Positions 7,457-40,380 of a DNA stretch of 64,000 nt are shown here, in pieces. Position 1 is the first letter of the stretch; each line of letters opens with the position of its first letter. Below the pieces are notes generated by a model, which was not told the DNA's origin, did not search any database, and saw only the letters and a program-made list of their open reading frames with translations. The stretch comes from Serratia fonticola. GTDB lineage: Bacteria > Pseudomonadota > Gammaproteobacteria > Enterobacterales > Enterobacteriaceae. The translations under genes and the position numbers were made by a program. The DNA lies in NCBI RefSeq assembly GCF_001006005.1, contig NZ_CP011254.1:5084001-5148000 (forward strand), in the 5' to 3' direction.

Positions 7457-8314
7457 TTACAGAATACCCAACAGGGAACACACCACGCTCAGTACCACTA
7501 CCGAAAGCAGAATGGTGGTATAGCGCGGCCCTTTTTTGACCAGATAGAAGTAGATCGAGAACACCGCAGCCAGCGGCAACAGGCCGGGGGCGATGGAGTC
7601 CAGGATCTGTTGCACCACCACCTCGGAACCTTCCAACGCGCTGATTTTCAGCGGTGAGGTGATCTTGACGTAGCTGGCAGACAACGCCCCCATCATGATC
7701 AGCCCGAGCACGTTGGCCCCGTAGATCAGCTCTTTTATCTTGCCCCCTTGCAGCAGACCGATGATCGATTCCCGTCCCAGCGTGTACCCTTTGTGGGCTA
7801 AACCGTAGCTGATCGCCATGGTGATCACGGTATACAACACCACCGGCATGATGCCACCCATGGCGCTGCCGTTGGCCGCAAAGGGAATGAAGATGGCGAT
7901 CAACAGCGGCATGATTGCCGCCCAAACCACCGAGTCACCAATCCCGGCCAGCGGTCCCATCAGGCCGGTTTTGATCCCGGTGATGGACGAATCGGAAATT
8001 GGCTCGCCACGGGTCTTCTGCTCTTCCATGGCAATGGCAACGCCCTGGATCACCGCACCGAAGGTCTGTTCGCTGTTGAAGAAGTTCAGGTGGCGTTTCA
8101 GCGCCTCAACCTGCTCTTCTTTCTGCGGATAGAGCTTTTTAATAATCGGCGTCATTGAGGCGCAGAAAATCAGGCTCTGTAAACGTTCATAAGAGTTGGA
8201 AACTTCGGCTCCCAGCCAGTAAATAAACCAGGCCTTGGTGATGTCCCGCTTGGTCAGCACGTTGGTTTGCCGTGCTCTTTCCACCAGTTCGTGTTGCATG
8301 ATGTCGCTGCTCAT
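7457..8314 (-). CDS. dgaD: Mannose-family PTS permease component IID (glucosaminate)
   Basis: A 285-aa IID subunit. With IIC it forms the inner-membrane channel that brings in D-glucosaminate with phosphorylation. Typical IID features are an N-terminal cytoplasmic helix region (LTKRDITKAWFIYWLGAE...SYERLQSLIFCASM) followed by GIKTGLMGPLAGIGDSVVW and hydrophobic segments to the C-terminus. GGGAG lies before the ATG, 2 nt after dgaC ends. Substrate is inferred from the linked dgaE and dgaF. Confidence 0.88.
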   Translation of the reverse strand: MSSDIMQHELVERARQTNVLTKRDITKAWFIYWLGAEVSNSYERLQSLIFCASMTPIIKKLYPQKEEQVEALKRHLNFFNSEQTFGAVIQGVAIAMEEQKTRGEPISDSSITGIKTGLMGPLAGIGDSVVWAAIMPLLIAIFIPFAANGSAMGGIMPVVLYTVITMAISYGLAHKGYTLGRESIIGLLQGGKIKELIYGANVLGLIMMGALSASYVKITSPLKISALEGSEVVVQQILDSIAPGLLPLAAVFSIYFYLVKKGPRYTTILLSVVVLSVVCSLLGIL

Positions 8315-39388: not shown

Positions 39389-39886
39389 TTATTTTCTCAA
39401 AGCCTCTAGCAGATCCTTTTCAAACACCCCGCTGGATGAACACTCGAAAGGCTTGACCTTATCGTTGCCATCCCCCGCGACTAGCCCCGCAACGCCATTG
39501 ACTTGCACCATCACGTTAGTCCCTTCTCCGGCGCTAAAAATCTGCACCAGGATCCGGTAGGTAACATTCAGATTAGACGGCCCAGGCTGGTCTGAACAAG
39601 TCAGATACAGACTGGCCAGTTCAGTATCATTGCCCGTCGTGCCAACAATCCCAAGATGTGGGTCGACAACCGTGGCCTTTAACCCTTTCTGCGCAAAAAT
39701 TGCCTCGGCACGGGTTAACAGCTCATCCGGCTTACGGTTGCCTATCAAGGTGGGCTTCTCAGCAGCCGTCGGTTCACCAGTGGCAGTTTCAGCCGCACTG
39801 CCGGGCTGGTTACCGGTTTTGGTTGGCCCATACACCGAGACGCAACCACTCAATGCCAATGCCAGCAAAATAATAAAATGTCTCAT
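39389..39886 (-). CDS. Putative lipoprotein, 165 aa
   Basis: A hypothetical lipoprotein. A very short signal peptide ends in lipobox ALSGC (Cys15). A low-complexity Thr/Ala/Pro/Glu linker follows to about residue 45, then a compact domain (LLTRAEAIFAQKGLKATVVDPHLGIVGTTG...). I recognise no family. AGGTGA lies before the ATG. Its start is only 3 nt after the stop of a 22-codon lipoprotein gene, so the three lipoprotein genes here form a tight operon that must be translated together. Confidence 0.8.
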   Translation of the reverse strand: MRHFIILLALALSGCVSVYGPTKTGNQPGSAAETATGEPTAAEKPTLIGNRKPDELLTRAEAIFAQKGLKATVVDPHLGIVGTTGNDTELASLYLTCSDQPGPSNLNVTYRILVQIFSAGEGTNVMVQVNGVAGLVAGDGNDKVKPFECSSSGVFEKDLLEALRK

Positions 39887-39889
39887 CGC

Positions 39890-39958
39890 TCACCTGTAAT
39901 ACAGCGTGGCACAGGCCGTTAACGACATAACAAGGCCGACAATCAGTAAATAACGCAT
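39890..39958 (-). CDS. Micro-lipoprotein 2 (22 aa)
   Basis: A 22-codon gene starting MRYLLIV with a complete lipoprotein signal and lipobox LTAC (Cys16). After predicted cleavage only CATLYYR remains, a seven-residue lipopeptide. GGAGGAGG lies before the ATG. Its stop is 3 nt from the downstream lipoprotein start, and it follows micro-lipoprotein 1 by 13 nt. The parallel with the neighbouring CVAAYYR peptide argues against chance. Function unknown. Confidence 0.65.
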   Translation of the reverse strand: MRYLLIVGLVMSLTACATLYYR

Positions 39959-39971
39959 CGCCCCTCCTCCG

Positions 39972-40046
39972 TTAACGATAATAGGCTGCAACACAGCCCG
40001 ATAATGAACAACAAACCAACATTAACCACACAACATAAACTCTCAT
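39972..40046 (-). CDS. Micro-lipoprotein 1 (24 aa)
   Basis: A 24-codon gene starting MRVYVVW with lipobox LSGC (Cys18). The predicted mature product is CVAAYYR, seven residues. A textbook ribosome site AGGAGG lies four nt before the ATG, which favours this start over a 60-codon frame that reads through from further upstream. First of three lipoprotein genes on the minus strand. Both micro-products share the pattern Cys-x-x-x-Tyr-Tyr-Arg. Confidence 0.65.
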   Translation of the reverse strand: MRVYVVWLMLVCCSLSGCVAAYYR

Positions 40047-40245
40047 GTATCCTCCTGACCAAAAGCGGTTGAACTTGTTTAGTAACAGCACCATCAAACG
40101 GTATCTTCTCCACATCAAGATGTCGCTTCCTGTCAGGTGTGTCAGCGCTGGCAATACAATCGTGGGGAACCCAATCGGGGCTCAGCACTGAGGATTGAAC
40201 ACTTTCTCTGACGTGGTAGATTGGATAAATTCATAAGGGTGGTTA

Positions 40246-40380
40246 ATGCGAGGTATGGACAGGCTGTTGATGACCTTGCTTACCATCATGACCGGCATAG
40301 GGATTGCCGTCATATTCAATATCGGCGGCACCGTGCAAATGCTCTCGGCCATTTTTCACTGGGTGGAGGGTCTGCGATAA
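40246..40380 (+). CDS. Putative 44-aa small membrane protein
   Basis: A short frame starting MRGMDRLLMTLLTIMTGIG with one strong hydrophobic segment (about 7-27) and a short tail ending HWVEGLR. AAGGGTGG lies five nt upstream. It is divergent from the lipoprotein operon and followed by a plausible terminator at 40494-40529. No family recognised. Confidence 0.5.
   Translation: MRGMDRLLMTLLTIMTGIGIAVIFNIGGTVQMLSAIFHWVEGLR

Follow-up and report, generated by a model that had tools for sequence, protein, structure and literature searches.

Paired micro-lipoprotein genes with predicted seven-residue mature peptides ahead of a PHROG 4676 lipoprotein gene in Serratia, and their single-gene counterparts in prophages

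The three-gene locus and its products

The window, i.e. the whole stretch of 64,000 nucleotides that was analysed, belongs to a Serratia-type genome of 6.0 Mb. Between two genes that we take, from their proteins, to be cutC and cmoB, its minus strand carries three co-oriented genes in the order uL-A, uL-B and C. The micro-lipoprotein genes uL-A (39972..40046, 24 codons, translation MRVYVVWLMLVCCSLSGCVAAYYR) and uL-B (39890..39958, 22 codons, translation MRYLLIVGLVMSLTACATLYYR) are separated by 13 nt, and 3 nt lie between uL-B and C (39389..39886), which encodes a lipoprotein of 165 aa. Each micro-gene possesses a strong ribosome site, tcaggaggatac-ATG in uL-A and ggaggaggggcg-ATG in uL-B; by direct reading of the sequence, the Shine-Dalgarno AGGAGG of uL-A is located at 40051..40056 (-) and the Shine-Dalgarno region of uL-B, GGAGGAGGGG, at 39961..39970 (-). 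The AGGTGA at 39890..39895 (-) comprises the final Arg codon and the stop of uL-B and possibly doubles as the ribosome site of C. Micro-genes of this architecture consist of a signal of 15-17 residues and a mature part of seven, here CVAAYYR (uL-A) and CATLYYR (uL-B). Their lipoboxes, LSGC and LTAC in the window and LAGC, LSGC, LSAC, LTAC or LAAC in relatives, follow a hydrophobic segment and agree with the consensus [LVI][ASTVI][GAS]C as given in PMC6139136. Asp at +2 is absent from both products. The translations, codon counts, lipoboxes and ribosome sites of a first-pass annotation were reproduced exactly on re-reading, as were its two gaps; the strand, minus for all three genes, had not been given there.

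Upstream of uL-A lies an imperfect palindrome, TGCCAGCGCTGACACA (40138..40153, -), which is partly kept among seven aligned loci and may be a regulatory site or operator. Sigma-70 sites upstream of uL-A in the window do not rise above chance, and the same scan in 27 loci gives p below 0.05 only in L011 and L072. A divergent hydrophobic ORF of 44 aa (MRGMDRLLMTLLTIMTGIGIAVIFNIGG...) occupies 40246-40380 (+), opposite to the cassette; by eye it seems to persist, with changes, 5' of the cassette in L010 and L003, and it may encode a small membrane protein that is conserved.

C belongs to PHROG 4676, a family that carries no function annotation: its residues 18-165 align with all 149 positions of the profile (1-149; E 1.5e-44), and other homologues reach 1.8e-103 (P0026) and 1.5e-54 (P0039). 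None of three micro-proteins scanned against PHROG gives a match better than E 0.01. Pfam and NCBIfam contain nothing above cut-off for C, uL-A or uL-B, in a search that has little power for queries of 22-24 residues. The predicted model of C consists of one domain (residues ~41-165) with a putative helix-grip fold, preceded by a linker of low confidence. It weakly suggests that C is a helix-grip lipoprotein resembling a BamC domain, and other folds tie in Z (4e6f 9.0, 1vjh 8.9, 6pny 8.8). BamC is described with two helix-grip domains (PMC13067283); in BamC (NlpB, PF06804) they stand behind an N-terminal lasso, whereas the C model has one. At E up to 1, PF06804 does not match the window's C, and it matches two of 22 C homologues (best E 0.01). 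A comparison of profiles, itself weak as only 7 of 25 BamC loci passed the motif filter, returns a match probability of 1%. Searching PDB by sequence with C yields just two unrelated matches (best E 0.44), BamC not among them. BFVD gives no fold at E<=0.001, and among the anti-phage defence profiles of PADLOC no family matches C, P0026 or either micro-protein, even with E allowed up to 1.

Conservation of the micro-gene/C pair and of the mature peptide

C was sought in relatives independently of the micro-genes, and the DNA 5' of it was read afterwards. All 15 distinct genomes found with intact C (G000, G001, G005, G023, G038, G040, G056, G168, G270, G331, G348, G391 and L011-L013, the last being three named Serratia contigs) possess one or two micro-genes directly 5' of it. 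Of 55 viral contigs, L124 has no DNA upstream of C, and the remaining 54 each contain one micro-gene ending in CTTLYYR, found with a pattern in which Y could also be replaced by F, W or H, and R by K. The search of relatives proposed in the first-pass annotation finds a lipobox-bearing CxxxYYR micro-gene ahead of C in 15/15 genomes and 54/54 viral contigs. The micro-gene of L070 starts with TTG, and in L123 C extends to the contig end.

Among 392 genomes of the family, the C search found 13, of which ten are full-length and preceded by a micro-gene (10/10). The other three are G197 (L064 8165-8450), with an intact micro-gene and C broken after ~40 codons, and G004 and G051, whose C is reduced to its final 32 and 18 positions, respectively, and in which no micro-gene is matched. 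A micro-protein profile (E<=0.001) detects 12 of these 392 genomes, 11 of them with a full-length match adjoining C; the twelfth, G312, has a partial match within a 235-aa frame and was judged spurious. The remnant of about 32 residues is that of Serratia silvae (L004 1501-1596 / L014 5001-5093, one genome), where a micro-gene was not found, so that the cassette can be lost by deletion. The remnant of 18 positions (L065, ~8012-8065, -) lies beside DNA that resembles, by eye, the end of an insertion-sequence transposase.

The uL-C family is narrow within the genome samples searched. C was not found in 368 other genomes of the class. The micro-protein profile, run on a further 147 genomes of the order, matches G887 alone; this match is partial, lies inside a 210-aa frame and was likewise judged spurious. 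Neither tblastn of two C proteins against deposited phages and plasmids nor a search of an E. coli collection (20,395 records, 5,426 genomes) with two uL-C DNAs, one in near and the other in distant mode, gave a match. The closest database protein to the window's C is named from Serratia fonticola (92%), and one Pseudomonas protein (P0039) occurs among the database homologues. The mature peptide is nearly unchanged in numerous prophages and in eight or more genera of enterobacteria, and conservation in relatives rules out chance ORFs. Five database C proteins (P0016, P0030, P0033, P0043, P0044) bear N-terminal extensions that look, by eye, like the micro-gene read in another frame; overlooking the micro-gene seems to have produced mis-annotated C starts.

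A scan that held C, Y, Y and R fixed and left the three middle residues free assigns 42 distinct micro-gene DNAs to three near-invariant classes of mature peptide: class T (CTTLYYR, 28 DNAs, the commonest), class A (CVAAYYR, 7) and class B (7, comprising CATLYYR in 5 and CASLYYR in 2). The T/S exchange in class B is the sole residue change within any class. Each of the seven codons of class T shows synonymous variation, Leu being encoded by both CTN and TTR and Arg by both CGN and AGG, with zero residue changes; invariant Tyr codons number one in class A and two in class B. Pooled over sequence pairs, pN/pS of residues +2 to +7 is 0 in A (7 sequences), 0.09 in B (7) and 0.03 in T (17), against 0.50-0.56 for the signal peptides. 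Since no residue differs in T, its 36 'nonsynonymous' steps are two-step paths between synonymous codons; those of class B comprise such paths and the T/S change. Constraint thus falls on the seven-residue mature peptide. Signal peptides stay hydrophobic and lipobox-bearing and are otherwise fairly free to change, the stop codon may be TAA, TGA or TAG, and the spacing from uL to C varies among loci. Synonymous codon variation together with diverging signals argues for selection on the peptide, and not on an open frame alone. The first-pass annotation had named an absence of codon-level conservation in relatives as evidence against its own claim; the mature peptide is conserved at that level.

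Prophage lysis regions and the chromosomal form

Of the viral C proteins, 53 were grouped at ~93% identity into 12 clusters, the largest having 41 members. Neighbouring genes were tested against PHROG directly in seven viral clusters (L071, L075, L082, L090, L111, L119, L122) and, for an eighth, L073, by way of L058, a close relative found in genome G391; the 41-member cluster is represented by L090 alone, though the upstream DNA of its members forms 18 groups. In all eight of the clusters tested, out of 12, lysis families occur among the neighbours of uL-C: holins (phrog_1350, 20, 198, 217), endolysins (phrog_7, 181), Rz-like spanins (phrog_312, 13, 214) and Rz1 (phrog_11621, 1275). In L058 the pair stands between a holin (phrog_1350) and endolysin/Rz (phrog_7, phrog_13), and L073 has the same gene order. 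L057 possesses a holin-like gene before uL-C and an Rz1-like candidate after it, and in L070 the genes behind C are endolysin- and Rz-like and the one preceding the pair encodes 443 aa and matches no PHROG. In most other loci uL-C follows Rz/Rz1; the distance is 22 nt from Rz in L090 and 233-392 nt in L122, L060 and L119, and another gene intervenes in L072 and L075. The contexts of L070, L072, L077 and L121 were judged mainly from resemblance of neighbours. In the viral contigs examined, the uL-C pair accordingly lies within the lysis cassette or close to it. Since lysis regions can also serve as hot spots of cargo genes, position by itself is no proof of a role in lysis.

Serratia and G038 possess two micro-genes, phages a single one for CTTLYYR. 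Counterparts of uL-A are present in all six other two-uL loci (L010, L003, L011, L012, L013, L062), and uL-B is adjacent to C, as is the single CTTLYYR gene of phages. The tandem most likely arose by local duplication of one micro-gene, whose mature peptide is CTTLYYR elsewhere. In a tree of C, the seven chromosomal copies with two uL form a group of their own (96/97) apart from 17 other rows, most of them phage; the tree contains 24 of 26 intended rows (L063 and L082 were left out), and as its root is not fixed it gives no direction of transfer between phage and chromosome. Among the 17 are two single-uL copies from chromosomes, those of G056 and G040, as well as the copy of G331. The cassette of G056 (L056 7858-8441), from another genus, groups with phage copies and is also situated between cutC and cmoB, which means that this site was used at least twice, unless its history is a more complex one. 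The window contains a chromosomal, uL-duplicated version of a phage-linked module. Probable local duplication, carriage in prophage lysis regions, membership of PHROG 4676 and the predicted helix-grip fold are additions to the first-pass annotation.

Possible function and alternative explanations

The uL-C pair may be a lipopeptide/lipoprotein module that modifies the outer membrane in the manner of T5 Llp ("lytic conversion"), a reading we prefer tentatively and with less than even confidence. We infer the expression, processing, location, joint action, target and benefit of the pair. The three genes of the window would be the chromosomal two-micro-gene form of a module whose one-micro-gene form sits in the lysis regions of temperate phages. 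Each uL would be translated from its strong ribosome site just before C, and C probably by coupling. Lipidation and cleavage of the resulting prolipoprotein are predicted to yield a lipopeptide of seven residues, which would be sorted to the outer membrane; C, likewise a predicted outer-membrane lipoprotein, would be its lipid-anchored helix-grip partner. With the chromosomal copy, the host would gain a standing version of the envelope change that the module brings about. The first-pass annotation had suggested functional lipopeptides, perhaps modulators of the third lipoprotein; real frames under strong purifying selection on the mature peptide favour the former over mere leaders, and the constant pairing of micro-gene and C fits the latter.

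T5 Llp is reported as a small phage outer-membrane lipoprotein, of 61 residues in the comparison given there, that binds FhuA from the periplasm and folds two outer loops of FhuA inward, blocking phage binding (PMC9586334). Llp and Cor of phi80, N15 and T1 are superinfection-exclusion lipoproteins, small, phage-encoded and of the outer membrane, which the phage-borne uL-C would match in these respects, and by analogy uL-C might act likewise. Llp acts as a single protein and its gene stands beside that of the receptor-binding protein pb5, whereas uL-C is a constant pair of a seven-residue lipopeptide and a helix-grip lipoprotein near lysis genes. The Llp/Cor family is not named by Pfam, NCBIfam or PHROG scans of the uL-C proteins, and the open-licence literature yielded no description of the CTTLYYR peptide, PHROG 4676 or such micro-lipoproteins. 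Against an Llp-like action, the lysis-region position fits a role in lysis or a cargo hot spot equally, and the location close behind Rz (22 nt in L090) probably implies late expression rather than expression in the lysogen. Also against it stands G197, which retains an intact uL though C is broken. In the boldest reading, which we consider improbable, the lipoheptapeptide, as the entire mature product of its gene, and a BamC-like C would together act as a decoy in two parts for the BAM complex or some other machine of the outer membrane. Temperate phages would employ it when they lyse the cell, to prevent the assembly of outer-membrane proteins or the display of receptors, and Serratia, with its two peptides diversified, as a standing envelope switch. 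A decoy directed at BAM draws on the BamC-like fold of the model, which argues for it weakly.

The main rival, in our judgement unlikely, is a lysis effector: lipopeptide and C would breach or loosen the outer membrane at phage lysis, like colicin lysis proteins (bacteriocin release proteins), and the chromosomal copy would be a regulated remnant or release device. The order in L058 and L073, between holin and endolysin/Rz, and the position after Rz/Rz1 elsewhere agree with it, but the phages tested already own endolysin and Rz-type genes, several also a holin and Rz1, and a lethal gene would hardly be expected to persist undamaged, along with two micro-genes, in the chromosomes of Serratia. 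Colicin lysis proteins belong to the small lipoproteins and have mature parts of ~30 residues, and entericidins occur as a tandem pair. Both resemble uL as very small lipoproteins, the entericidins also in being paired, yet their mature parts of ~30 residues differ from the seven of uL, far below the length of a colicin lysis protein. For Atu8019, annotated as entericidin family, a mature part of 32 aa is given (PMC7296081). Neither family occurs among the Pfam/NCBIfam matches of uL-A, uL-B and C at E up to 1, with little power for the short queries. Rz1, the o-spanin, is likewise a small phage lipoprotein near Rz; unlike it, uL has a seven-residue mature part and a second lipoprotein gene behind it. 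That uL (or C) is the outer-membrane half of an Rz/Rz1 pair would suit its proximity to Rz in many prophages and the 6 of 16 loci (L075, L070, L073, L058, L060, L055) in which a pattern scan detects no other Rz1-like small-lipoprotein candidate. Such candidates are present in the other ten, including L090 and L122 (phrog_11621) and L111 (phrog_1275), where PHROG identifies a separate Rz1. In these three loci uL is an addition to the lysis set and its identity with Rz1 is rejected; the o-spanin explanation as a whole is very improbable.

Next after the lysis effector, and a little more doubtful, is a role of the micro-genes solely as leaders that couple, pace or regulate translation of C, including as arrest peptides, their products being jobless after synthesis. 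In the loci read, C begins at the uL stop, overlapping it, or a few bases later, and several loci show by eye no ribosome site of its own, which makes coupling of C to uL plausible; conserved C-terminal residues ahead of the stop are a hallmark of arrest leaders. Bare coupling requires no invariant peptide, however, and the canonical lipobox and hydrophobic core are among the conserved features, stop codon and spacing to C vary, and Serratia and G038 retain two differentiated micro-genes. Of the alternative offered in the first-pass annotation, short leaders that couple translation, the coupling therefore stands as plausible from the spacing of C, and the mere leader is disfavoured by selection on the peptide; translational coupling is probably an added role of the micro-genes. 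Enterococcal sex pheromones derive from lipoprotein signal peptides, a precedent for the released signal peptide as the active product. Here the signal peptides change fast (pN/pS 0.50-0.56) and the mature seven residues are nearly fixed, a pattern that contradicts a signal-peptide pheromone and leaves it hardly any likelihood.

If functional, a lipoprotein with a mature part of seven residues would be, to our knowledge, among the smallest functional lipopeptides made by ribosomes. Genes of 22-24 codons are under the length that common gene callers report, so that a layer of very small lipoproteins may have been overlooked. The position in the lysis region would point to an unrecognised envelope step in the biology of temperate phages, and the copies in Serratia suggest that bacteria retain the module for their own use.
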